From contig NC_061061.1 of the NCBI RefSeq assembly GCF_021917145.1, forward strand, positions 9,970,494 through 10,034,493: a stretch of DNA of 64,000 nucleotides, in the 5' to 3' direction. This document shows, one piece after another, positions 1-36,500 of this stretch (within the stretch, counting starts at the first letter, position 1; each line of letters starts with the position of its first letter). The position numbers and the translations under genes are program-made. This DNA comes from Hypomesus transpacificus (taxonomy: Eukaryota > Chordata > Actinopteri > Osmeriformes > Osmeridae). The notes under the pieces are model-generated. The model was not told where the DNA came from. It was given only the letters and a program-made list of their open reading frames with translations, and searched no databases.

Positions 1-1883
<1,883 letters not shown>

Positions 1884-4800
1884 AGGAGGGAAGGAGAAGA
1901 GGGAAGGAGGGTTGGAAAGGAACGGGAGACACGGACTCAGGACCCTCGTTTGGAGGGGTGCGAGGGGTTGAAATGGAGGAGAGCAAAGTGTGTTGTAGGA
2001 GAGAATAAATGGAGCCAAAGGCTCCAGTCATGGAACATGAAGATGAAGCAGGATGAACATGGCTTGGAAAAGTAGAATATTGTACATCCCAGCATCAAAG
2101 AACTGTGCTCTCACACCCATTGGGGAATCTTGAGTGTGTCAAATGTTCAGTGCGTATCTTTTCTGTATTAAAGATTTTTTTAATTGTAATGTTCATTTGA
2201 TACAGCACCCGTAGTACAGTTTTATTTTTTTACCCTGTGACCCACAAAACTGTAGAGTGATTGTGGATGTTGCAAACTGTTACTCACGTTATGTAACTTG
2301 AATATGTATCGACAGTATGTCCATTCTAGCCATGTAAAGGACTTTCACTTGATTCCTGTGGTAAAGTTACAGTAGTATTGTTTTGCCCTGTCTCAGACTC
2401 TAACCACTTTAAATGAGCCCGGAGATTGGATTTGTTTATTTGAGTGGGTGTGAGAAATCTAGTAGGAGGAGGAAAAGGAAAGGGAGCAAGAAAGAAAAAG
2501 TGTGCGTTCATTCCATGGATGTGTGTTTGCAATGTGAGTGCCTATAATTGTGTCATACGAGAACACATTATTTCATTTATTCGTCGATTATTTTCCCATG
2601 GCTTCATGGGCAAAAGAGACTGCACCTACATTGCTACACTTTGGTTAAATAAGAAAATATTACTCCACCTCAACAACACTATACAGTACTTAATATCGTT
2701 ACTCTCACAACAAATGTTTTTAATAATTGCCTTTGAAATTGGTAACGCTTGTTTTCAACATAGGTTGCACACAAATATATTCTACACTCTGCAAATGCAA
2801 CTTGGTACTGGCAGCAGTTATGAACAAATGCTGATTTGTGACTGTACAAGACGGTAGTCAACATGGAAAAAAGTTATGATCATGGTTTACAATGCATTAC
2901 AACTGCAGTGCTAGCTTTGTATTACATCAGGTAAAATTTGGGCAGAAGAAGTTTGGTATTTGACTCTCTCCAAGTCTAACACCCCATTTTCTCCAGTGGA
3001 CTGCCACTCTGAAAGCACACCGGAATTTTCTATTTTTGTGTCATGTTACAATAAACTTTCTAAAATCTTGTGAAGTATCGGCATAGAAGATGTCTGAATA
3101 AACTGAAGAATTCTTGCGTAGGATGCATTGAAGTGCCACATCTTGTTTTGGTTGTCACAGTAATGATACTCAGTGACTGGTCTTAGTGGTACCAGGTTTT
3201 AAGCCAGCAGTGTTCACTTGTACTGAAGCATCAAACTGATTAAGTATGTATATTTCAGATTGTACATGTCAGTCCTAAATGTGTTTCCCTATGGTAAGTT
3301 TTTTCTCCTTAAATCAATAAAAATGATATACATGTTTGAGTTTCTTCCTTTGTGTTTCCCTCATAATGTGTTTTTGGTCTCACAGACTGAATGATATTGA
3401 TATTTGTGTAGCGTTACACAGTAAAACATTTAACTCTATTCTGTTCATATCAATTGAGCAAAAAACAAGATTACCTTAACACACATTAACTTGCTCTGCC
3501 AATTATATATGAAAGGACTGATGACTACGCTGTAAAAAAAGAATTGTTGGACCAACTTAATTGAATTACTTCAATTGGTAACACATAAATGAAGTAGTTG
3601 AAAAGTTGATGTTTTTTATACCTTATTACATAAATGTAAAAAAGCTTGACGTCTATGTCACCAACACAGCTTTTGATCCAACACATTACACAGGTTTTTG
3701 GCATTTAAATGTAAAATCTTTATAATATAAAACAAATGTCCATAAGTTTCAAAACTGGGAAAAGTTCCAACAGTTGGGCGATGAGATTTATACAAAAAAA
3801 AAGTTTTGAACTATCAGCTGTAATATGTACACACTTGTAGTCGACAGTAGAGGAAATTGGGATTTCCTGTGTACTTAAATTATTCACAAATCAATATAAC
3901 TTTCACTAATCAATCATTGGCTTGGATAGTCATTGGATACTAGTTAGTATGTTCTCATGCCAGTTTGCTATTGATAAAACTAGATTGTGTATATTGTGTA
4001 GTGTAGGGGGTTAAATATTGGCCAAACAACCAAAACGGATTCCCCTATGGAATATGGGAAACTGAACAGTGTATTAGCATGAATCAAATAATGCCAATAC
4101 AAATAGAATGGCAGTTATTTGACTCTATGGGTTTAATCAAAGTTTAACGGTCAAAGTAAGGTTAAAATTACATATGCATTTTATAACATTGCAAATGAAT
4201 GAAATCAATTACAAGGCAAACATGTTACAAAATGAAGGCTTTAAATCTTACCCACTCTAACATGATCATTGTAAATCAGAGATAAAGCAAGAGGTGAGCA
4301 AGGAGTAGGACAGTAGGACAAGGGAGAACTGACGAGAAGGTCTCAGGAGATGAAGAATCCACAGAACAATGCAGTACTATTCCCTTTATACACAAGAACA
4401 ACCAGCAACCATCAGACCACATCTTGAACGGGGTGTGAGAGCCATCAAGTTGAGACCGTTCACAAACTCCAGACTTTAGCATATGAGAGGTGAGGGCAGG
4501 TTTGACACCCAGCCTTACATACGTGTCAGGTTGAATAGATGTTCTGGGTCAGAAGAAAGTACAGGGCGAACGTCCCTTGTGATGACTATGAGGGGAGCCC
4601 CACGTATGATCTCTCTGATGACTCTCACTGACTTGAGAGTGGTCATGGGAGCTGTATATTGAATATGCATGAAGTTGCTCAAGTAGACTAATTCACAGCT
4701 ATCAGGGACGTTCACCCTGTACTTCCTTCATACCCAGAACATCTATTTAACCTTACACATAGACACAAGATTGAACACTTCTACAGATTGAAGAAGTCAT

Positions 4801-7012: not shown

Positions 7013-7649
7013 ACCATAGATATATATTCAGCTGAGATAATAGTGGACTATACAAAAGGATCGATTGAAATTATTTGATTACAGAGTAATAAAAAACTAC
7101 AAGGTTTAGTTTTGTTGATGCAAAATGAACTTATGCATGAATGAACTTTATGTCATGAGGTAGGTTGGGATGTGCTGTACTTCCATTTACTATAGAAACT
7201 ATTGTGTCTCTGTCCAAGACACAATAGAACAAAAATCTACAGTTAAAGTCCAAAACTATAAACCTGACTTCTACTAAGTATAGCATGTCAGAGAAATGTC
7301 TATGTGAGTCCAGATAAAGTAGAAAGCCTTTAATTTCAAACCATAGACTAACAATCAAAATAAATGTTTGTACCACACCATGTTTTCTATGCTAGCATAT
7401 ATCTGTTGATGATCAAAAGTAGTATAATATCAGGCCACAATGAACCTTAGTGGTAAACAGTGTAGTTCCTAATGTCAAAAACCCAAGGATACTGATCCTT
7501 AGGCCTACTTAATTATAGACTCCAAATACATTGCATCAGTCTTAATTTCTCCATATCACTCATCATCTGAACAAATATTAACCAATATTGTGATGTATTG
7601 TTTAAAGTAATTGATGTATTATAATGGCTGTATTTTCTGACACACAGAC

Positions 7650-8816
7650 ATGATCAAGTCAACATGCCAAGGGACAGTACCACGGCCTGCATTGATTTGC
7701 AGCTTTGTGGTGGTGTGCTCCTTAGTTTTATTTTTTACGTACTACAAACCCAACATCAACTCACTGTGCACCGACAGAGAGTCAAATGAGAAAGCTATAA
7801 GTGTCTGCCAAGATGGGCTAAATCGAGAGGGTAATCAGACTGAGGTCCCAGACCAAACCACATCACAACCCCAGAAGACAGGCAAGCAGAACTCCCAAGT
7901 AATCCTCAGACCTGACAATCCAGAACCGAACACTATTCTCTTGATCTGGATGTGGCCATTTGGACAATCTTTTGACCTTCATTCATGTGCTGATTTCAAT
8001 GTTCAAGGTTGTCGCTTGACAGACAACAAGAGCCTTTATAAGAATGCACATGGAGTCCTCTTTCATCACCGGGATATCCATGAAGATCTGGGAAACATGC
8101 CACAAAATCCACGTCCCTGGTTTCAGAAATGGGTGTGGTTCAATGCTGAATCACCTGCCAACTCCAAAAGATGGCCCAAATTAGATAATCTGTTTAATTT
8201 GACTTCAAATTATCGACAGGATTCTTCTGTACCTGTTCCTTATGGATCCTTAGTCGAGGTAACAGCTGTGGACAAACACTTTGAGCTGCCAACAAAGAAT
8301 AAATTAGTGTGCTGGTTTGTGAGCAACTGGCACCCATCATTCAGAAGAGTTCAGGTCTACAATGAGCTGAGTAAGCATGTCAAAGTAGAGACCTATGGAC
8401 GACACTTTGGTACATACGTAAACAACGAAACAAAAACCATTTCTGGATGCAAATTTTACTTGTCCTTTGAAAATTCAGTCTTCAAAGACTACATCACTGA
8501 GAAGTTGTACAATGCCATGAGTTTAGGAGCTGTCCCAGTAGTTTTGGTTCCATCCAGGCAAAATTATGAGGAATTCATTCCAGCAGACTCTTTTCTTCAT
8601 GTGGATGACTTCCCCAATCAAAAGGAACTGGCAGATCGGCTGCTTTTCCTTAACAAGAATGATGAAGAGTACATGAAGTACCACAGCTGGAGGAAAAACT
8701 ATAAAGTTAAGGGATGGTATTTTGGACTAGAACATGCATGTCGATCATGTGACTACATTAGACGGGAGAAAAGATACAAAGCTATTAACAATCTAAATCA
8801 ATGGTATTGGGGCTGA
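7650..8816 (+). CDS. fut9: Alpha-1,3-fucosyltransferase (GT10, FUT9-like), intronless coding region
   Basis: 388 residues, close to the usual 360-400 for this family. A type II Golgi enzyme: short cytosolic tail, one membrane segment at about residues 14-31, a low-complexity stem with N-glycosylation sequons, then the GT10 catalytic region. It transfers fucose from GDP-fucose to GlcNAc of N-acetyllactosamine (Lewis x type products). Visible family motifs are ILLIWMWPFGQSFDL (about 95), FNVQGC, HHRDI, VPYGSL and the donor-binding signature CKFYLSFENS...DYITEKLYNA (about 266-290), plus paired C-terminal cysteines (HACRSCDYI). FUT9 is closest among the mammalian enzymes I know; a fish-specific paralogue is possible. 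The ATG lies two bases after a good acceptor (TTTTCTGACACACAG), so an upstream non-coding 5' exon is likely, as in FUT9. A hAT insertion begins 152 bp after the stop. Confidence 0.92.
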   Translation: MIKSTCQGTVPRPALICSFVVVCSLVLFFTYYKPNINSLCTDRESNEKAISVCQDGLNREGNQTEVPDQTTSQPQKTGKQNSQVILRPDNPEPNTILLIWMWPFGQSFDLHSCADFNVQGCRLTDNKSLYKNAHGVLFHHRDIHEDLGNMPQNPRPWFQKWVWFNAESPANSKRWPKLDNLFNLTSNYRQDSSVPVPYGSLVEVTAVDKHFELPTKNKLVCWFVSNWHPSFRRVQVYNELSKHVKVETYGRHFGTYVNNETKTISGCKFYLSFENSVFKDYITEKLYNAMSLGAVPVVLVPSRQNYEEFIPADSFLHVDDFPNQKELADRLLFLNKNDEEYMKYHSWRKNYKVKGWYFGLEHACRSCDYIRREKRYKAINNLNQWYWG

Positions 8817-8968: not shown

Positions 8969-11407
8969 CAGAGGTCGCCAACCTGTCGATCGCGATCGAC
9001 GTGTCGATCTCGGAGACTTTCCCTGTCGATCTCCAAAATAATTTCAGAAATACTGATCTCCGACTAATTCATGAACGCGGAGGATTCTTAAACTGAACGC
9101 GCGTTCTCTTGTACCTGGATTTGCATATTGGCCTGTGCGTGTTGCAAAGCAATTCACCGACAGAATAAATGGGCGTTTTTTCCCGAAGACGACCTTTGAG
9201 AGACCTGCTATCCCAGGATACCTGTGGGCGTGGTTGCCGTTGGTTTGTTTATTTACCCGGCCGTGTTGTCCACATAGTGTTAGCAAGCATGGCAGAGGCA
9301 CCACGAAAGAGGGCGAAAAACTACAGTTTCCATCATGAATGGGAGGAGGAATTCATCTTTACCTTGGTAAAAGACAAGAGTGTGTGTATGTTGTGCCACC
9401 AGCCACAGGCACTGTCTAAGCGAGGGAATTTGGAGCGGCACCACAACACTAACCATCCGAAATTCAAAGACTGCTATCCACCAAAGAGCGCAATCCGCGC
9501 CAAAAAAGTTCAGGAGCTGAAAGTGGAGTTGAAGGCTCAACAGTCGCTTTTCTCACAACCTACGTCTCAAAGTAAGGCTGCAACTGAGGCGTCATTTCGT
9601 ATTAGCCACATTTTGGCTAAACACAAGAGACCTTTTACAGATGGGGATTTGTTTAAGGAACTATTGACCGTCACCGCAGAGACTGTTTGCAGCACCTTCA
9701 AAAACAAAGAGGACATAAAAGCTGCATTCCGTGCTGTGCCTCTTGGTCCTACAACAGTGACACGAAGGATCGAGTTACTGTCGGATAACGTTGGTCAACA
9801 GGTGTTGGAGGACTTGTCACTCTGTGAATATTTTTCACTGCAGTTTGATGAATCGCTGGATGTAATGGACACGGCTCAGCTTGTTGTATTTGTCAGAATG
9901 GCTTTCCAGGACTTTACAACAAAGGAGGACTTCCTCACTCTTCTCCAATTAAAAGAGAGAACGAGAGGTGAGGATATTTACAACGTTTTTAAAAGCTATG
10001 TCCGTGAAAAGAACATCCCCATTCAGAAACTGGTGGCAATCACTACCGATGGGGCACCGGCAATGTGCGGTGTGCACGCTGGTTTTATAGCACTGTGCCG
10101 TAATGATCCGGATTTCCCCGACTTCATGAAGTATCACTGTGTGATTCATCAGCAAGCCTTGGCTGGGAAAGTTGTGGACTTTTCTCATGTCATGTCACTG
10201 GTGGTCAAAGTGGTAAACTCGATTCGAGCAAAAGCGCTTCAGCATCGCTTATTCAAGGCGTTATTGGATGAGCTCGATTCGGCGTATGGAGACCTGCTTC
10301 TGCATGCTGATGTCAGGTGGTTGAGTCGCGGAAAAGTGCTGCAGCGATTTGTTGACTTGCTGCCTGAGATTAAGACGTTTCTGTCGAAAAGGAACGAGGA
10401 GCACGAGGAACTTTCAACGGATGCGTGGCTACTGGACCTGGGGTTTCTGACGGACCTAACCGGAAAACTGAACTCGCTCAACCACGAACTCCAGGGAAAA
10501 GACCGGCACCTCCTCCACATGATCAGCGCAGTGAATGCGTTCAAGGCCAAACTCTGTGTCTGGACCACGAATCTGAGGAAAGGGACGCTGACACACTTTA
10601 CAAACCTGGAAAAAATGTCACAGTCCATCAAAGACTCTTCTGACTTTCACCCTGAGCAGTACTGTGTGCACCTGGACAAACTGGCAGCGGAGTTCAGTCG
10701 ACGTTTTGGTGAGTTAGAAATCATGAAGGATATTGCTGCATTTCTTTCAAACCCATTCCTGCCTATTAATACAGAGGAGGTTGCAGACCAATTCGAGAAA
10801 GCATTTGCTTTGCCAAGTGGAGTGGACATGGAGATGCTTGATTTGCAAAATGACATTGAGCTGAAAGCCAGGTCAAGGGACAGTGACTTTTGGGGACTTG
10901 TCAGCCGAGAGAAGTTTCCTCTCCTCAGTGCATGTGCACTAAAAGTGAGTGCCTACTTTGGATCGACCTACCTCTGTGAAATGGCATTTTCACAGATGAA
11001 AATCACCAAATCCAAGTACAGGAGCCGGCTTACTGACAGACACCTCACAGACTGCCTCAGACTGGCTGTCTCTGCTTATGAGCCAAACTACAAGGCACTC
11101 ACAGACAGTGTTCAGTCACAGCCATCACACTGACTTGTCACATGAGAAATTTGTCAGTGTTGTGTTGTAACTTCAGTTTATAAATAAAACCGTTCATATC
11201 CAGCCTGCTCATTGCAAAAGTGTTTTTTCTTGTTCATATTGTTCACAAAGTGTTTGATTTCATTCAATTACAATAAGGCCAAATATAAAGTTAAGTTGTA
11301 AGTTCAGTCTGGAGTCTGTTCTGTCTCTCAACGCCTCAATAGGTAGATCTTCGGGTCACCAAGGCAAAGGTCGGTGATCTTTGGCCTAAAAAGGTTGGTG
11401 ACCACTG
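8969..11407 (+). mobile_element. hAT DNA transposon, apparently complete and autonomous (2,439 bp)
   Basis: The left end CAGAGGTCGCCAACCT and the inverted right end (…AGGTTGGTGACCACTG) match at 14 of 16 positions. The element is flanked by a perfect 8-bp direct repeat CTTTAGAC (8,961-8,968 and 11,408-11,415), the expected hAT target duplication. Subterminal GTCGAT and AGATC motifs repeat inside each end. A single uninterrupted transposase ORF fills the middle and is followed by AATAAA at 11,181. It landed just downstream of the fucosyltransferase gene. Confidence 0.95.
9289..11133 (+). CDS. hAT transposase (BED-finger, Charlie/ZBED5-like type)
   Basis: 614 residues from the ATG at 9,289 (MAEAPRKRAKNYSF). 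The frame is open further upstream to 9,169, but this start fits the family better because it directly precedes the zinc finger. Residues about 12-56 form a BED-like finger (CMLC at 33-36, then NLERHHNTNH). The catalytic core shows FDESLDVMD, the second acidic motif ITTDGAPAMCG, the CVIHQQALAGK motif typical of this clade, and a C-terminal dimerisation region with the final glutamate (FGSTYLCEMAFSQMKITKSK YRSRL). It would bind the element ends and cut and paste it in the nucleus. No stop or frameshift interrupts the frame, which suggests recent activity. A domesticated gene is less likely because the TIRs and target duplication are intact. Confidence 0.93.
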   Translation: MAEAPRKRAKNYSFHHEWEEEFIFTLVKDKSVCMLCHQPQALSKRGNLERHHNTNHPKFKDCYPPKSAIRAKKVQELKVELKAQQSLFSQPTSQSKAATEASFRISHILAKHKRPFTDGDLFKELLTVTAETVCSTFKNKEDIKAAFRAVPLGPTTVTRRIELLSDNVGQQVLEDLSLCEYFSLQFDESLDVMDTAQLVVFVRMAFQDFTTKEDFLTLLQLKERTRGEDIYNVFKSYVREKNIPIQKLVAITTDGAPAMCGVHAGFIALCRNDPDFPDFMKYHCVIHQQALAGKVVDFSHVMSLVVKVVNSIRAKALQHRLFKALLDELDSAYGDLLLHADVRWLSRGKVLQRFVDLLPEIKTFLSKRNEEHEELSTDAWLLDLGFLTDLTGKLNSLNHELQGKDRHLLHMISAVNAFKAKLCVWTTNLRKGTLTHFTNLEKMSQSIKDSSDFHPEQYCVHLDKLAAEFSRRFGELEIMKDIAAFLSNPFLPINTEEVADQFEKAFALPSGVDMEMLDLQNDIELKARSRDSDFWGLVSREKFPLLSACALKVSAYFGSTYLCEMAFSQMKITKSKYRSRLTDRHLTDCLRLAVSAYEPNYKALTDSVQSQPSH

Positions 11408-18137: not shown

Positions 18138-18489
18138 AAACTATCAGATGGAAACAAAGCACACAGCTGCAGCAGTGTTAGCACTGTAGCAGCAGCAGCG
18201 TTCGCTCCTGTAACAAATGGCAGACAACACTCGCAAAAGAAGCGAGCAGCTGACTGGGTTAAAAAAAATACAAACGGTCTTGTTCAATATTAAGGTCAAT
18301 CTGTGGTTGCTTAAATATCTGAAGTATGTTGGAGTGAGATTTGAATATTATGGAGCAGGATATCGTAGTGGGCTATGAGACAAACACTAGTAGCCCATCT
18401 CCACTACAGCAAGCCCACATGAAGCAATGCAGTAATAATCATCAAGTAACCATCAAAAACCAACACCAAATGAAACACAAAATGATAAC

Positions 18490-18495
18490 TTTATT
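18490..18495 (-). terminator. Candidate polyadenylation signal of the 19.0-22.7 kb gene
   Basis: TTTATT on the plus strand is AATAAA on the minus strand, about 520 bases beyond the predicted stop at 19,019. No other minus-strand AATAAA was noted in between. Confidence 0.45.
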
Positions 18496-18594
18496 GAGAA
18501 CAATATGTAAAGCATCTGTGAAATGAAGAAAAGGTCTGGTGTGAAACTGATGATGTCATAAGTGTGTATGTCTACATGATCTCTGTGTAGTGAA

Positions 18595-18698
18595 AGAGAG
18601 ACAAAAAGAGAGAGAGTGTATGTGTGCGTGTGTGCGTGTGTGTGTGAGAGAGAGAGATAGATAGATAAAGAGAGAGAGAGAAAAAGAAAGAGAGTGAA

Positions 18699-18736
<38 letters not shown>

Positions 18737-18780
18737 TGAGAGAGAGAATGTGTGTGTATGTCTACATGATCTCTGTGTAG
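18595..18780. repeat. GA/GT compound microsatellite with duplicated flank
   Basis: Long AGAG and GTGT tracts. The flanking text TGTCTACATGATCTCTGTGT AGTG occurs both at about 18,570 and about 18,760, so the microsatellite expanded inside a duplicated segment. It lies in the predicted 3' UTR of the minus-strand gene ending at 19,019. Confidence 0.85.
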
Positions 18781-19018
18781 TGTAAGACAGAGACAGAGAA
18801 AGAGCATGGGTACACATGCATGATGTTTGTTAAACATCTGAACAACAGCCGCACATGAGTTTCCTCAACAGCCACTGGAGAAACCTGTCAATCATAAGAA
18901 AAAACGTAAAATGTAATCTGCCATACAAGTACGCATTCTCACATCCTTACAATGAAGGTCTTGCTGTCTTTACCCACATTCTACCACCCCCTCCATGTAG
19001 CCTCTCTGCCATCTGGCC

Positions 19019-22000
19019 TCACCTCTTTGCCACATTCTTCTTTTTCTTTTTCTCCTCCTTCACCTTGTTTTCAGCGTATACCTCTGTCTGTTTGTTACTG
19101 ACTTCCAACACAGTCAGTGGTTTAACATGTGACTGGGTTTTGGTCGTCTTGTTGCCTTTGCCAGACTTCTTCCTCTCCCCTTTGCAAGTCTTCTTCTCTT
19201 CCGTCACATCCTGAAAGCAGAACACAAGCTTACATGGACTGAGCAGAGAAAAAATGGAACCAATGAAATCATGGTTCTTTTCCAGTCTCATTGGTGCGCA
19301 ATTTATAGTCAATTATTGTGCAAATTGGGATTTATGCTTAACTGTGAATATCATCATGTATTTGCATATGATGATAATGACTCACTTGCTGGAGCTCTTC
19401 CAATCCTCCTTGGAGCAGCTTCTTTGCATCGGCACTCAAGTTTTGGATTGGTGCCAGACAAGGGGGGGGTAGATACCCCACAGCAGGCAGAGTGTCAGGC
19501 CGCGCAGGACTCACAACTATAACAGTGACACGGTTGAGGGGAGTCACGGTGACACGGTTGAGGGGAGTCAAAGCCCGGGGAAGCTGCTGTTTCAAGAGGA
19601 GGGCCTCAGGAGTAGGAGGAGTCGGAGGGGGGGAATCCACGGCCTCCTCAATAGTGAAGGGGACCACAGGAGGGGTCTCGGTCTCAGATAGATCCTGAGG
19701 AGACAAGAGAAGACATCACCTTTTGGCATGTGGGACCTGGGATCTTTCCATGGCTCTTTAGGATGATAATCAACAAACAGTGCCATGCCATACCTTGAAT
19801 CAAACAATAGCTGAATAAATGAATATGTACAGTCTCTGTATTAATTACTTACAAAGGGTTGGATGGATGACTTCTGTTCCTGGGAGGGTTGGACCTGTAG
19901 TGGGGAACTACATACCTCGGGTGGTTGGACCCTCTCAGTGCATGCCCTGCAGGCCATGCGCAGCTTCTCAACCTCTCTCTGCCAGTCCTTCAGGCCCGAC
20001 AGATTGATTTCAACTCTGCAGTCGTTCTGGATCACTTGGATCAGCGCATCGAAATCTTGGCTGACCCGTATATACTTTTGCGCCTGAATCCTCTGGAGCC
20101 TTCTCCCTCTGACGCTATAAACAAGTCTTCTCAGAGACGCACCCATCAGGCCTTGTCCCTGGCTCTTCACACGAGACATCTCTTTGAAGTACTCGTTGGT
20201 GTTCAGGATCTCCGCCTTGGTTTTTGAAAGGTCCTCTTCTAGGGCAACCAGGGTTTTTTGGAACCTTTTCATGACTCTTGCGACACGGAACTGCCTGTCG
20301 CGCCCCTTCTGATCATGTAGCATGGTGGGGTGCACGTCATTAGTGACGCAAGGCTTGGTCACGGCTTTCACGGAGGAAGAAAGATGGGCCTGGCCTTCGT
20401 CATCCATAACATGATTCTAGGGAGACCAAAAGTAAAGTACAATGTGCAGGAACAGGGCAGAGAGAAACATTTTAAGGTGTGAAGATCCATATGGTGAGGG
20501 CAAAAGCTGATTCAACACTAACAGAAAAACAGGCCAATTAATTGACCTTCTGTCACACACATACATATACCAGGCGTTTATCCTGAAGTGGATTCTCCTG
20601 GTGGTCACGGTCCTCATCAGACTGTGAGTCAGATGGGAACATATTGTTCACAAAGTCTATGTTCAAAATGTAACGTACCCTAATGCTTTTGATGCACAAA
20701 CTGACCAGAAAAGTTGTCTCGCTGACTGAGCGTAGAGAGAGGTCATCATAATCTACGGTCTGTCGGTGAGTGTTTCCACCCCGTTCCACATCCTATATTA
20801 GAGACACAGTCACTCGGAGGTATTTGACCATGTCTTCTGTTTAACCATTTAAGTTTAAGTTCATACAAACTCATATCATATGTTACATCCATTTCACTTA
20901 TTACTATGCAAAAACTTACCAGATAATCTTCGTCATTAAATGACTGGATAGAAAGATGGTCCCCATTTTGCCAATCCCTTTCATTGGACTGCATAGTGGT
21001 CCCATCAAGTTCACCTCCCTACATTAGAGACACAGATAGATCGTTAGTTTTTAGGAATCAAATCTCTGAAAACCACTGCATTAGGCTATGGCCAATAACA
21101 ATGATTATGGGAAAGTGTTATTAGAGAGGAGCTGACTTCACTAGAAGAGTTTAGTTTCGGCATGTCACAATCATTGGCTTTGAAGCAATTGAGAGAGAGA
21201 AAACATTAAACTTTTGTCACTGCAATGCTTTTGAGGTTTGATTTACAGGCCATTTGTGGACTGAGCCTTGAGTCTCTTTTTACTGATGTGGTCAGTTATA
21301 ACAATACACAAAAAGAAAACGATATATCAAAACTTGCTTTAAATGTATTTGATGGTATTGACGGTAACTGCATAACGAAAGTGTGGATTACATTTAGAAT
21401 TAAACTTTGTTTTACGCGTAAGACTACAATAAGTAGGGGAAACATTAATGTGTATAAAAGAATTACTCACCAAAAAGCACAACAATGTCTGAATAGCCTG
21501 ATCTTCTGAGAAAGCTTACAATACGAGTCTTCAAGTGTTACTATTCACCTATACCTGTGTTCAGAAGAATGTGATGTAGGTCTCTAATGTCTCATTTAAG
21601 TATGAATATACACCATTATGACGTTTTTGTACGTCATCATGTGTAGCATTCGGACATACTTTTATACAGAACGTATGTCCGTAAAATAAATATACGTCAA
21701 TATTGTTACTTAGAAATGTGTAATACACACAAGCATAGCTCAGATGACTCCAATAAATAATACGCAAACAAATGCCCACTATACTACAACAGTATGCGAT
21801 CATCGGCCCATCTGCACTACACGTTCCGTCATGTAGGACAGATTTGATTTTGAAATCCATACAGCCCAGCAGTCCTTTAAACTGGCAACATCTTTGTTGC
21901 CTGAATAGGTACCGACCAGAGCCATTAAATTATTATTAAGCTTTATTGATTGATTTATTATCAAAACTTGCTTTAAATGTATTTGAATTTTGAATCTGAA

Positions 22001-22683
22001 GGACATTTTCTTAGTTGTACAGCCATGATATTTACGGTAACTGAATAACGAAAGTGTGGATTAAATTTAGCATAAAATTATGTTTTACTGTAGGCTATTA
22101 CAATAAATAGGGGAAACATTAATGTGTAAATAAGAATTACTCACCAAAAACCACAAAATTGTCTGGATAGCCTGAGAAAATCTTCTGTGAAAGCTTAGAA
22201 TGGTCTTCAAGTTATTTACCTGTTCAGAAGAAATGTGATGTTGCTCTGTAATGTTTCATTTAAGTATGAATATATACCATTATGACGTTTTTGTACGTCA
22301 CATCAAGTGTATCATTCGGACATACTTTTATAAAGATAGAACGCATGAAATAAATATGTCAATATTTCTCATTCGAAATGTGTATTACACACATGTAGCA
22401 GAACACCAATAAATAATACGCAAACAAATGCCCACTACATATCACAATGGTATGCTATAATTGTTACTTGGCCCATCTGCACCACACGTTCCGTGATGTA
22501 GCCTAGAACAGATTTTCTTTTGAAATCTAAACACAGCCAGCAGTCCTTAAATTGGCAAGATCCTTCCTGTCTGTATAGGCCCAGATCCATTTAAATATTA
22601 TTAGTAGGCTTTTTTAAGAAAAGTAGTAGGTAGCTCACGTTTCCCTCGAAAACTTTAGGATTATTGCCCTCCTCTGAAGTCAT
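19019..22683 (-). CDS. Unrecognised seven-exon gene, 448-residue protein
   Basis: Exons on the minus strand: 22,683-22,639 (ATG), 21,018-20,920, 20,792-20,706, 20,621-20,571, 20,416-19,853, 19,694-19,386 and 19,210-19,019 (TGA). All introns are GT-AG and all are phase 0, and every exon is open. No family was recognised. Residues 1-94 are acidic and polar. Exon 5 (95-282) is mostly predicted helix with coiled-coil character (RVMKRFQKTLVALEEDLSKT, KAEILNTNEYFKEM) and basic stretches (LRRLVYSVRGRRLQRI). Exon 6 (283-385) is proline-rich, with a doubled TPLNRVTV. Exon 7 is strongly lysine-rich and ends KVKEEKKKKKNVAKR, a plausible nuclear-localisation signal. No signal peptide or membrane segment is seen. 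Exon 4 (51 bp) is the least certain: an alternative acceptor there would break the frame. A nuclear structural or meiotic protein is a guess only. Confidence 0.72.
21325..22608. repeat. Diverged tandem duplication of about 630 bp in intron 1 of the unrecognised gene
   Basis: Copy A is about 21,325-21,942 and copy B about 21,959-22,608. Both start TATCAAAACTTGCTTTAAAT and share GGGGAAACATTAATGTGTA, AATTACTCACCAAAAA, ATTATGACGTTTTTGTACGT and CAAACAAATGCCCACTA, with many substitutions and small indels. Each copy retains a minus-strand donor-like TTTTTG^GTGAGTAATTC. Confidence 0.85.
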
Positions 22684-23104: not shown

Positions 23105-23233
23105 AGCTTCAGCCCAGCTTCAGCCCAGCTTCAGCCCAGCTTCAGCCCAGCTTCAGCCCAGCTTCAGCCCAGCTTCAGCCCAGCTTCAGCCCAGCTTCAG
23201 CCCAGCTTCAGCCCAGCTTCAGCCCAGCTTCAG
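23105..23233. repeat. 11-bp tandem repeat, about 11.7 nearly perfect copies
   Basis: Unit AGCTTCAGCCC repeated head to tail with no visible mismatch over 129 bp, preceded by GGTA and ending AGCTTCAG before TATGCCC. The homogeneity suggests recent expansion. Confidence 0.97.
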
Positions 23234-24065: not shown

Positions 24066-24277
24066 CAGTGGTTCTCAACCCTGTCCTCAGGGGCCCCCTG
24101 TCCTGCTGGTTTTAGATGTTTCCTTGCTCCAACACACCTGATTCAAATGTATGTTCGTTACCAGGCTTCTACAGAGCTAGATAACAACCATTTTATTTGA
24201 ATCAGGTGTGTTGGAGCAGGGAAACATCTAAAACATGCAGGACAGGGGGTCCCTGAGGACAGGGTTGAGAACCACTG
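24066..24277. mobile_element. Palindromic MITE of hAT type (CAGTGGTTCTCAA termini), 212 bp
   Basis: Left half CAGTGGTTCTCAACCCTGTC CTCAGGG and right half CCCTGAGGACAGGGTTGAGA ACCACTG are near-perfect inverses. Complementarity continues inward through AGATGTTTCC and AACACACCTGATTCAAAT. The CAGTGGTTCTCAA ends are those of hAT MITEs. I could not find a matching 8-bp target duplication, so the precise ends are uncertain. Confidence 0.85.
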
Positions 24278-30500: not shown

Positions 30501-33500
30501 TGCGGGACGTCCCCCTGGGCCAGCTGGAGGCGGAGCTTCGCGCCCCGGACATCACGCCGGACATGTACGACTGCGACGCTGTGATGAAGGACCGCCACTG
30601 GAGCGAGTGGCTGCAGGGCCTCATGACCTCCGACATGGAGAACGACGGTCAGGAAGGGGTGGAGGGGGGGAAGGGGGGGGGATTGTTTCCTAAAGGCGTG
30701 TTCGCCGAGACGTCACATGCAGACAGATGTAGTTTGTCCGTGCTGGCGTACTTCGAGTGTTTTTAATGGCCCTGTCTGTTTGCTCGCTCATGTTTTTCGC
30801 ACATTCTGACCTTTCCCCCGCGTCACCCCTGCTGTTTGCTGTCTTGGGGAGGGGAGGGGGGGGGGGGGGGGCGATGACAGTGGAGACCACGGAACCCCCC
30901 CCACCTGTTTTTTTCTGTGGTGAACATAATGTACTGAGGGCTCTCATCCTCTTAACAATCCTCCGTCTCTTCTCCAGCATGCCCTAACATGCTATACTTA
31001 TGTGATGTTTTTTGGGGGGTTGCATCCATAGTTTTTAACCTTATATTATATACCCAGTTGGAATGACAAAGTTCTAAATGATCCAAGTGAAACGGGGGGA
31101 AAAAATATGCTTCTTCTCTCTCTTAGAAGACGGCGATGACGACGACGACCCAGAGTACAACTTCCTGGAGGACCTGGACGAGCCCGACCGGGAGGACTAC
31201 AGGACGGACCGCGCCGTCCGCATCACCAGTGAGTGTGTGTGTATGTGTGTGTGTGTGTGTGTGTGTGGGGGGCACGATCTACACAAAACACCGTTGCACG
31301 TAACAATTCATATACGTTCGGTCCCTACACCGACCGATACAGTCATCCTCCAGACAGGTTGACCGGCGTAGAGCCACAGCAACACTATACAGGCCTGGAA
31401 AACGCTCTGATGAACCAACTGGCGGAAGAAGGACACAAGCTCATGTGGCGTCTCTCGTCTTTCTCTTTCAGAAAAGGAAGTGAACGAGCTGCTGGAGGAG
31501 CTTTTTGAGACGGTACGTCTGTCTTTCTCTCTCGCTTTCTCCTTTTTCTAGCTTTGTCACCTTCTTTCACTCTCTCTGTCTCTCTCTGTATGTCCCACAC
31601 ACGGACACACGTTTCTCTTTCACTGTGTCTTCGTTCATCTGAATCGGTCGAGGTATTCGCCCCATCTCTCCTGAATGTGTCTCGTTTGTCACACTCAGTT
31701 CCAGGATGAGCTGGGAGGGAACGAGGGCGAGGGGGAGGGCCACGAGGAGGACGAGGAGAGGGAGGAAGAGGCTCCGTCTCAGAGCATGCCCAAATTCAAC
31801 GTCCCCCAAGCTATACGGTAAAGCCACCTTGTCCCATCTGACTTCTCCACAGTTTGTCCCTAAAAACACATGGGCCCCCATCACTTGTTAATGCGCCTTT
31901 GGTAACCAAAGTTCTCTTGACCAAAACACTAACCGTAAGTGTTTGCCCATAAACCCTTGACAGCGCTTTAGACCTTAGGTTTAATGGACGTTGATGTGCC
32001 GATAAGCTCAATTCTGCTTCTCGTTTCTTCCCTTAAACACCCACACACTCTTACGCACGCACACACACACGCTCACATTACCTTGTTGACTTGTGCTCGA
32101 TGAGCCGTGATGGCCATCTGTCCCCTGTGTGTGTGTGTGCCGCGTGGGTCCCTTGACGCCTGCACCTTCATCTCTGCTTGCAGGTGGCCACACAACTGGC
32201 CACATTTGCTATGTGGAAATCAAGGAGTTATGTCACCTTAGTGTCATATTAGCTTCCTTTAAAAAGCCAAATACAAATTATAGATCTATATAAATATGGC
32301 AGTGTCTTAAGGAAATGTTTTTGAATACCCCCAATACACACACACACACTCTTAAACACATATAATACACCTCCCTTCGGGACAGGGCAGCAGAGAAGTG
32401 CTGTACCTGCTTGGGTAGGGAGGTACAGAAAGGCTTCGGCAATGCTTTTCCACCTACTAAGGATCAAGAGGTGGATTCATTTGCTTCTGAGCTACACTTC
32501 CAATAAATATAGGAACACAATTCCACTGATTTGTCATCCATTTCACGTTGTGCTTGGCATACTTAGCAACAGTAAAATATCGAATACAAGTCTAATAAAT
32601 GAAAGCTTTTTTTTTTTTTACTGACAATCTGTCTCCCGTCTGTAAACGCTCGCCGTCACACGTCCGGTGCTGACGCGTTCCCTCCCAGGCCGCCAGGTGC
32701 TCATGTCCCTCCGTACACCTGAGGGACTCACACGGCTTTCTGGCACGCCGCTCGGCCATCGCCGGGGAACACGGCCACGTCACCGCCCACGAACGCACGT
32801 TGAAGCCCGCGCACACGCTCTGTGCCCTATGCACACGCTCTGTGCCCTATGCACACGCTCTGTGCCCTATGCACACGCTCTGTGCCCTATGCACACGCAC
32901 TGTGCCCTATGCACACGCTCTGTGCCCTATGCACACGCTCTGTGCCCTATGCACACGCTCTGTGCCCTATGCACACGCTCTGTGCCCTATGCACACGCTC
33001 TGTGCCCTATGCACACGCTCTGTGCCCTATGCACACGCTCTGTGCCCTATGCACACGCTCTGTGCCCTATGCACACGCTCTGTACCTTACGCACACGCTC
33101 TGTGCCCTACGCACACGCTCTGTGCCCCACGCACACGCTCTGTGCCCCACGCACACGCTCTGTGCCCTACGCACACGCTCTGTGCCCCACGCACACGCTC
33201 TGTGCCCTATGCACACGCTCTGTGCCCCACGCACACGCTCTGTGCCCCACGCACACGCTTTGTGCCCTATGCACACGCTCTGTGCCCTATGCACACGCTC
33301 TGTGCCCTATGCACACGCTCTGTGCCCTATGCACACGCTCTGTACCTTATGCACACGCTCTGTGCCCTACGCACACGCTCTGTGCCCCACGCACACGCTC
33401 TGTGCCTTACGCACACGCTCTGTGCCCCACGCACACGCTCTGTACCTTATGCACACGCTCTGTGCCCCACGCACACGCTCTGTGCCCCACGCACACGCTC

Positions 33501-36500
33501 TGTGCCCTACGCACACGCTCTGTGCCCCACGCACACGCTCTGTGCCCTATGCACACGCTCTGTGCCCTATGCACACGCTCTGTGCCCTATGCACACGCTC
33601 TGTGCCCTATGCACACGCTCTGTACCTTATGCACACGCTCTGTGCCCTACGCACACGCTCTGTGCCCCACGCACACGCTCTGTGCCTTACGCACACGCTC
33701 TGTGCCCCACGCACACGCTCTGTACCTTATGCACACGCTCTGTGCCCCACGCACACGCTCTGTGCCCCACGCACACGCTCTGTGCCCCACGCACACGCTC
33801 TGTGCCCTATGCACACGCTCTGTGCCCCACGCACACGCTCTGTGCCCCACGCACACGCTCTGTGCCCTATGCACACGCTCTGTGCCCTATGCACACGCTC
33901 TGTACCTTATGCACACGCTCTGTGCCCTACGCACACGCTCTGTGCACCACGCACACGCTCTGTGCCTTACGCACACGCTCTGTGCCCCACGCACACGCTC
34001 TGTACCTTATGCACACGCTCTGTGCCCCACGCACACGCTCTGTGCCCCACGCACACGCTCTGTGCCCTACGAACACGCTCTGTGCCCCACGCACACGCTC
34101 TGTGCCCTACGCACACACTCTGTGCCCTATGCACACGCTCTGTGCCCTATGCACACGCTCTGTACCTTATGCACACGCTCTGTGCCCTACGCACACGCTC
34201 TGTTCCCCACGCACACGCTCTGTGCCTTACGCACACGCTCTGTGCCCCACGCACACGCTCTGTACCTAATGCACGCGCTCTGTGCCCCACGCACACACTC
34301 TGTGCCCTACGCACACGCTCTGTGCCCCACGCACACGCTCTGTGCCCCACGCACACGCTCTGTGCCCTATGCACACGCTCTGTGCCCCACGCACACGCTC
34401 TGTGCCCCACGCACACGCTCTGTGCCCCACGCACACGCTCTGTGCCCCACGCACACGCTCTGTGCCCCACGCACACGCTCTGTGCCCTATGCACACGCTC
34501 TGTGCCCCACGCACACGCTCTGTGCCTTACGCACACGCTCTGTGCCCCACGCACCGCCCGCCTCGTTAACACAGATGGACGCACGGATGGCCACTCACGC
34601 CCACACACTCATGCTATTCCGTTATCGTCCCTCCATAAACCCCCCTCGAGGAAGCGCTCGTGTGCCTGTTGGCGTCACAGTCCCTGCCCTGGGCTCTGAC
34701 GTCTGGTTTTAAATGTTAACGACAGACGTCTGTCGTGGAGAACGTTGATTTTTTTCTTCTTTCCTACCTGCTGTCTGAGAAACGGTGCTGCCAGCACGAC
34801 TGTCAAGTACAGGAAAGCTGGAGAAGTGGGAGGGGGAGAGGGGGATGGAGGGCCGTGTTATGTTGCATAATGGGCACCCAATCATTCCTTTTAACCGAGA
34901 CATTATTTTACGTTGGGACAACCTTGTAAGAAACACTTGAAAGGTTTTGTGTTCCTCCATTAAATAAAGGACATGAAAAAAAATTCTAACGTTTTTCAAA
35001 CAATTGCTTGCGCCTGTTGAACTATTGTAGCGGTAAGACAAAATCAATACGATTAAATTGTCCTTTGACACCAATCTCAATGATTCGGCCCTTCTTCTTT
35101 ATCTTGTCAGGTTCGAGGCTCCGCTAGCTAGCATGCTCTCCGAGCGCCGCCGTGCGGTCAGGGAGCAGTACGAGGCCCTGCAGCAGCGGCGAGCGCTCCA
35201 GGACACGCCCACACACACGCCCAGCCTCCCCAGCCACGTCTTCGACACCACCTCCAGCCCCACCCCCCTGGTGGTGTTCTGCCCCCAGGCCCGCCCCCAG
35301 GCCCGCCCCGCCCTCACCCTGGACTCCGCCCAGAAAGCCCAGCTGCAGCTGCAGGTCCAACAGGTAGGCCCGGTGACTCGAGCACCTTCCCGTATTTGAA
35401 ATTTGAATGCACGTCATTTTCGATCCAGGGCGGGGGGGAGTTATGGCGGGCCAATGAAACGAACGAGCCACGCCCGCCCTCCAGAGTTGCTCACATCGGA
35501 CTTTTGTTGACGTTTCGAACTTCCCTCCCCGATGAAGCACGTCCAGCTGCTGACTCAGCTCTTCCTGCTCTGCAGTCCAGTAGAGGCCCTGCACCACCAG
35601 GCCTGCACCACCCAACAGTACCTGGTCAGTACACAAAACCGTCTCCAATCCCACCCCGACTCAGCATACAAACTCCTTCATCCCTCGTTCCCCCCCCCCC
35701 ACCCCCGCGCTGTGTCCAGGAGGAGCTCCAGACGTTCGCCAGGCGGCAGGAGGGGAAGGGGGGGCCCAGTGTCTTCAGGGTGTGTAACCTGAAGGGGGCG
35801 CTCTCCCTCATCGCTGAGCAGGAGATACCGTGTCCCAAGCCCCAAGCTCCTCCCAACGCCACCGCGCCTCCTCAAGCGCACCCCAGTTCCTTCAGTAAAT
35901 GTGAGTGTGTTTGTTTCTTTGCCACAACGACTAACAGGAAGTCAAAATCCTATGTTCATATTGTATAGATGAACGGAGGCCAAGTTTCTCTCTTTTTGGT
36001 TTACCTACAGAGCTCTGCCTTCATCTTCTATCCTTCGCGTCTAAAAATATGGCAAGGAGGCAGAATTAGCATCCACGTGCTAGCTTTGACCAGAGGATGT
36101 AGGTGGACTGTGTTATTAAAAGTCACTGAGAGCTCCCATGTGTGTCGTTGGCCCCACAGCGCGCACCTATGCCCAGTTGCCTGCTACGACTGCCTGGCTG
36201 CTGGCCACCAGGCCTGTGTTCCTGTACCCTGAACTCCTGCCCCTCTGCAGCCTGGACCCAGCCCTGCACCGCCCTCGCACTAAGAACCACTACACACGGG
36301 GGGAGGAGAGGTGACCACAAACAAACTCACCTCAGGAAGGATAAGCCTTGTTATATGACCACTTTGGTCATATCACACCAACCTTCACATCGAGGGTTTT
36401 TGTGTTTGGATACACGTTTAGGTTCATACAGATGACACAAAAGACTGAATGAGAGAGAGAATGTGTGTCACACACACACACCATAAAACGCAGCAAAAAC

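Follow-up and report, generated by a model that had tools for sequence, protein, structure and literature searches.

The window, by which we mean the whole 64,000-nt stretch analyzed here, corresponds to C2:9970494-10034493 of its own genome (437,198,280 bases, 376 contigs). Besides the gene unit under study, it contains a fucosyltransferase (GT10) in a single frame, with Pfam N- and C-terminal domains well above the cut-off, an uninterrupted 654-codon frame for a hAT-like transposase (Dimer_Tnp_hAT, E 2.7e-4, with 21.1 bits where the cut-off is 21.4), and a UnaL2 LINE 3' element (Rfam RF00436). A 20-bp minisatellite of ~87 copies keeps three plus-strand frames open for 531-688 codons; these frames are made by the repeat and are not genes. 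Upstream of the gene unit there is an inverted repeat with 83-nt arms that are 95% complementary, and the window also holds an 11-bp tandem repeat of 11.7 copies with 100% matches.

A preliminary description had proposed a seven-exon minus-strand gene at 19019-22683. The seven pieces were confirmed at their places, all in phase 0, with AG acceptors at exons 2-7 and GT donors at exons 1-6, and their product was 448 aa followed by a stop. The composition agreed with the outline of an acidic N-terminal part, a helical center, a proline-rich section, and a lysine-rich end. Exons 2-7 were retained, as the same exons were present in other copies. Exon 1 was discarded: in the copies read, homology stops at or before ~22656, inside this exon, and the family has another first coding exon. 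Exon 5 with its 188 codons had been regarded as hard to explain by chance. The longest stop-free run in the unit was 191 codons, 188 of them in exon 5; such a run was uncommon, yet it was reached in 14 of 3000 dinucleotide shuffles of 18382-22656. Alone, the run is suggestive but not decisive. The locus is also not one single gene, as exon 5 is multicopy and belongs to a family of at least 26 loci. Membership of exon 5 in a multicopy repeat family had been expected to speak against a gene; exon 5 is literally multicopy, but the copies keep splice sites and frame, and multicopy here therefore means a gene family rather than a junk repeat.

Table 1 Positions of the gene unit and of other features in the window
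Feature	Position	Strand	Remarks
Dispersed gene unit common to other copies	18382..22656	-	Match begins at 18377-18382 in most of 20 loci read
Exon 1 of the preliminary description, unsupported	22639..22683	-	ATG outside the shared unit; matches to other copies cover only its end
Upstream module, distal copy of a ~665-bp tandem duplication	21959..22606	-	Direct repeats D3, D5-D7, D9-D11
Upstream module, proximal copy	21325..21877	-	Same direct repeats
TATAAAAGTATGTCCGAATG block, distal	22313..22332	-	Candidate promoter element
TATAAAAGTATGTCCGAATG block, proximal	21647..21666	-	Candidate promoter element
CRE-like palindromic block, distal twin	22277-22300	-	Putative role
CRE-like palindromic block, proximal	21613..21636	-	Putative role
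Probable UTR-exon donor TTTTTG/GTGAGTAATTCT, distal twin	22133-22150	-	
Probable UTR-exon donor TTTTTG/GTGAGTAATTCT, proximal	21459..21476	-	
Place of the missing first coding exon (MDDAEM/gtaaga and variants)	21030..21048	-	Alignment of 15 copies upstream of exon 2
Exon 2, acidic module	20920..21018	-	In-frame ATG at 20992-20994; isoleucine codon there in most other copies
Exon 3, acidic module	20706..20792	-	Its start resembles the exon 2 start
Exon 4	20571..20621	-	Present in other copies
Exon 5, 188 codons	19853..20416	-	Predicted three-helix bundle
Exon 6, proline-rich (18% Pro)	19386..19694	-	In-frame tandem repeat of 24 bp
Exon 7, lysine-rich tail and stop	19019..19210	-	Found in other copies
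Inverted repeat	24066-24277		
11-bp tandem repeat	23105-23233		
20-bp minisatellite	32810-34554		
hAT-like transposase frame	9169-11133		
Fucosyltransferase (GT10)	7641-8816		
UnaL2 LINE 3' element	5169-5223		

Copies of exons 2-7 in the genome

A search of the same genome with exon 5 as the protein query matched 28 places, and no internal stop was present in 27 of the 28 matched exon-5 rows. One very long open frame among the matches was rejected as a run of N read as open. Removal of a chance row on C23 (E 1.77) and of a C17 row covering the second half of a copy split by a frameshift left 26 loci, which are spread over 12 contigs with 11 on C5; the number is a lower bound, as the genome searches score the best candidates only. 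The exon 6 query added one further decayed piece with two stops (C2:9481740). Approximately 10 kb was read around 20 loci and shorter stretches at five more. In the 20 loci, introns were kept, and the match to the unit ended at 22656, or at 22561-22606 in many copies.

The copies were grouped by sequence into A (L010, L013, L014, L015, and L019), B (L011, L012, L016-L018, and L020-L024), C (the window copy and L009 on C50), and D (L026-L028 and L034-L036 on C5), with the fragment L025 and a distant member, E (L029, C5:5.927 Mb; 32% aa identity in exon 5), standing apart. Open frames of L029 followed the order of the family (short acidic, helical, proline-rich, and lysine-rich), and its helical exon, the one whose borders were worked out, had the same TTT/GTAAGT donor.

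Splice sites and frame were compared in 17 of the 18 near copies, the fragment L025 being left out. Acceptors were AG in 99 of 100 cases, donors were GT in 85 of 85, and exon lengths were multiples of three in 99 of 102; since L013 and L014 overlap, their exons 2-4 are one stretch of DNA that entered this tally twice. Only two exons contained internal stops, exon 7 in L022 and exon 5 in L024. Among intact copies, the lengths of exons 2, 5, 6, and 7 differed by multiples of three. Without constraint, substitution along trees of 16 in-frame sequences would have produced 18.6 stops in exon 5 and 30.4 over exons 2-7; none was observed. This zero is partly by choice, since L014, L016, and L024 had been dropped and the frameshifted exon 7 of L021 and L022 and the unalignable exons 3-4 of L026 and L027 were left out. 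Four of the 18 near copies (L021, L022, L024, and L025) were broken. These comparisons indicate that exons 2-7 are real coding exons. We consider it highly probable, judging from sequence, that the exon-bearing copies constitute an intron-bearing protein-coding gene family without a recognized domain, which was amplified in tandem as 5.8-kb units on contig C5 and dispersed to other contigs.

Start of the gene and make-up of the window copy

In 17 of 20 loci, exon 2 was preceded by a short first coding exon with a GTAAGA (or GTAACA) donor, in phase 0 with exon 2. Its distance to exon 2 was 103-109 bp in 16 loci and 333 bp in L028, where a further acidic exon lies between the two. The encoded peptide was MDDAEM or variants in groups B and D and MPNDAEM in A, and in L012 the first of two ATGs was lost. 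Farther upstream, a tandem duplication of the upstream module (~665 bp apart) was also present inside other copies. The TATAAAAGTATGTCCGAATG block was found with ≤4 mismatches in 13 of the 20 loci searched, and the CRE-like palindrome with ≤5 mismatches in 16 of 20. The donor TTTTTG/GTGAGTAATTCT had an exact match in one or both modules in 14 of the 15 A and B loci, the fifteenth being unreadable there; in this tally, L013 and L014 show the same DNA. The two TATA/CRE-type modules may act as alternative promoters, from which non-coding first exons would be spliced to the short coding exon.

The first coding exon was not found in the window copy or in L009, and a third locus of the 20 was unreadable there. 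In the window copy and L009, sequence like the upstream part of L026 reaches the exon 2 acceptor directly, and in both, exon 2 carries an in-frame ATG (Met-9) at a codon that specifies isoleucine in most copies; the product from there would be 425 aa. The window copy may be 5'-defective, or may start at Met-9 of exon 2.

We next consider its composition. Over exons 2-3 and the intron between them, identity was 83-90% with the six D copies, of which three reached 90%. Four A copies gave 81-83%, with 87% over one partial row of 189 bases, and B gave 76-78%. In exon 5, the aa identity was 78% to A, 72-75% to B, and 40-41% to the two aligned D copies. Since exons 2-3 are closest to D but exon 5 is closest to A, the window copy is, on these identities, most likely a recombinant. 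The 24-bp tandem repeat of exon 6 was seen only in the window copy and L009 among the copies read. It is likely that the subfamilies exchange sequence and that the window locus is one mosaic, 5'-altered member.

We see even chances that the family is real but its window copy a mosaic pseudogene truncated at the 5' end, which without a start exon would give no full protein. The loss of the first coding exon in both members of group C points in this direction, as do the extent of the window unit, which spans only positions 52-4199 of the 5806-base unit, and an out-of-frame ATG ahead of the in-frame ATG of exon 2. Against these stand the intact exons 2-7 with good splice sites and the exon 2 ATG common to both copies, from which a protein could still be made.

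Tandem units and inverted-repeat carriers

The A-type copies form head-to-tail 5.8-kb units, 5846 bp apart on C5, and the junction of the tandem units was also present in L011, L013, L015, L016, L017, L019, L023, and L024. L010 (C8) is one whole unit with GCACGG at either side, a possible 6-bp duplication seen in this one copy only. Readings of the tandem units as LTR elements or Helitrons were rejected, as the single unit L010 lacked long direct repeats at its ends and inspection of the unit junctions by eye showed no Helitron ends. Teleost gene families reportedly grow by recent tandem duplication; growth on one chromosome is likewise seen here, but the present family also extends over 12 contigs and has no Pfam match.

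The units at C5:5.42 Mb and C3:14.23 Mb were 99.7% identical over 5 kb, which reflects either an assembly effect or sequence that moved very recently from one chromosome to another. In addition to this pair, L011 (C196) and L016 (C49) were 96% alike over 8.7 kb, flanks included, as would be expected if duplicated haplotypes in the assembly made up part of the copy number. However, most loci read share little past the unit, many copies are on different large contigs, and the window and C50 copies are alike in the unit only. We therefore regard a contribution of duplicated haplotypes as rather unlikely.

Four group B copies (L012, L017, L022, and L024) had a common left junction with a ~360-bp repeat. 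At the other side, the repeat was inverted in L022, with GAAACG at both ends, and in L017, with TGAATG at both ends and one more G outside on one side; the next such repeat at L024 was 18.8 kb off, and the flanks did not match. A 6-bp target duplication was thus present in two of the three elements examined. The carrier elements have TA..TA termini, TATGGAGC...GCTCCATA. The 34-base repeat end occurred 173 + 155 times in the genome with ≤2 mismatches, against 0 for the control. The carrier repeat had no match anywhere in the window, and the inverted repeat was not found in L026-L028. Copies outside the inverted-repeat element were tandem units on C5/C3 and the single unit on C8, with no such repeats in the flanks read. 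At C367:1019875-1022833, the right end of the L022 element occurred three times at ~1.29-kb steps, two of these copies being 99.8% alike over 1.2 kb; this triplet is a recent tandem duplication of a transposon end.

Comparison with a gene-less element (L025:576-1957) revealed short shared words at the gene joins, as would be expected for capture by template switching. The suspicion that the gene unit had entered the inverted-repeat element with a 6-bp duplication was given up in view of these words. As read from their sequences, the junctions show that the gene was captured by the inverted-repeat element and then inserted at two sites. Of the repeat-joined copies, two (L022 and L024) are broken and two (L012 and L017) keep exons 2-7.

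PMC10045372 gives TA..TA termini and usually 6-bp target duplications as the signature of IS3EU/GingerRoot. The carrier is alike in both, and its name is based on the ends and the duplication length only; no transposase was recognized in the one 3.75-kb relative that was read (L032; longest frame 137 codons). PMC8277862 gives replication fork switching as the model for multicopy Pack-TIRs, and the short shared words are in line with this. The Drosophila Pack-TIR family Ssk-FB4, described in the same paper, resembles the present case in that an intron-bearing gene was captured by a TIR element, which then spread it by transposition; a further likeness is that its proteins form a young family under positive selection, to which the present one can be compared. 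Unlike Ssk-FB4, the source here is an orphan family in tandem arrays, and most copies read are not joined to TIRs. The carrier also differs from the Pack-TIRs of PMC8277862 in its IS3EU/GingerRoot signature, 'IS3EU' appearing 0 times in the main text of that paper. The partial mobility of the family is a variant of a known process.

Two copies between inverted repeats with 6-bp duplications, together with L010 between its two GCACGG, might instead mean that the protein is an accessory gene of a transposon, either the IS3EU-like inverted-repeat element or the 5.8-kb unit. The gene was, however, joined to the inverted repeat in only 4 of the 17 near copies whose flanks were read and in none of L026-L028, the 328 repeat ends compare with at most 26 gene loci, and the capture joins carry short shared words. 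We find a transposon accessory gene very doubtful.

Protein change, homology and possible function

As a gene family, the copies were compared for the speed of protein change using 11 members (A, L010, L014, and L019; B, L011, L012, L017, L018, L020, and L023; C, the window copy and L009). The dN/dS ratio was 0.46 within A (bootstrap 0.25-0.86) and 0.59 within B (0.44-0.85). Between groups, it was 0.91 for A-B (0.67-1.24), 0.62 for A-C (0.45-0.91), and 0.82 for B-C (0.61-1.15). Relative to the introns of the same copies, dN/K was 1.01 (A-B), 1.18 (A-C), 1.01 (B-C), 0.88 (A-A), and 1.39 (B-B; 1.03-2.00). By exon, the A-B dN/dS was 0.36 in exons 2 and 3, 1.14 in exon 5, 0.98 in exon 6, and 1.42 in exon 7; for exon 2, A-D gave 0.20 against 0.36 for A-B. 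As dN is close to intron divergence, constraint on single residues is weak. The frame thus appears to be guarded while residues change at approximately the speed of introns, which bears out the earlier suggestion of a very fast-evolving protein. The rates are consistent with diversifying selection, short of proof; the copies seem to exchange sequence, which disturbs selection tests. A dead interspersed repeat with accidental open frames, as the multicopy state, the repeat-rich surroundings, the amino-acid divergence about as high as that of introns, and the 14 of 3000 shuffles might suggest, is extremely unlikely in the face of kept frames and splice sites, in-frame indels, and stops far below expectation.

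The whole protein matched 0 Pfam families up to E 5, and 17 exon-5 sequences gave only scattered weak Pfam matches (best E 0.007, in 3 of 17). Searches of Pfam, PDB (single sequence and profile), Foldseek on PDB and BFVD, VIA-align, IMG/VR, and GTDB yielded no convincing relative, and the searches made gave no sign of a viral origin. Weak leads that were not taken up came from the PDB profile search, in which a designed bundle scored E 0.017 and THO complex subunit 7 scored E 0.058, and from Pfam (Peptidase_M49 and Pil1). Structure prediction modeled exon 5 as a three-helix bundle; the mean pLDDT of the fold rose from 49.0 to 68.9 when the family alignment was added, and BAR and F-BAR folds were among the weak leads from VIA-align. 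The preliminary description had been unable to assign a family, and the libraries searched, Pfam and PDB included, likewise gave no placement. For eukaryotes, the sequence comparisons covered this genome, Pfam, and PDB. No description of the family was found in the open-access literature searched. Within the collections searched, it is new as an orphan family.

The protein could be a nuclear adaptor, in which the acidic hydrophobic motifs of exons 2-3 would bind a partner, the three-helix bundle would serve self-association, and the lysine-rich tail would cause nuclear retention. The fast turnover of residues in a family evolving by birth and death suggests an arms race, either germline conflict or innate defense. 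We offer this functional step, both adaptor and arms race, as a tentative guess that is more probably wrong than right. On the minus strand at C5 ~5.43 Mb, at L014 near the tandem A units, there is a frame with a PARP domain (PF00644, 29.9 bits where the cut-off is 26.7), which resembles the fish interferon-induced Gig2 family; such a neighbor is a hint of an immune neighborhood, not evidence.

It is quite improbable that this orphan gene family copies itself intact with its introns by mobile routes, as a 5.8-kb unit that makes a 6-bp duplication on insertion, of which L010 is the one case, and as an IS3EU-like Pack-TIR passenger, under diversifying selection; if true, a host gene would behave in effect as a transposable unit. 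Gene duplication by inverted-repeat transposons in animals was almost unexplored as of 2021, according to PMC8277862. In the present family, at least 26 copies of one multi-exon gene, with captured forms and probable source arrays, are readable in one genome, and they allow a test of whether transposon-borne gene copies stay functional. The family is an orphan in the libraries searched, and its protein changes as rapidly as conflict in the germline or the immune system would lead one to expect.
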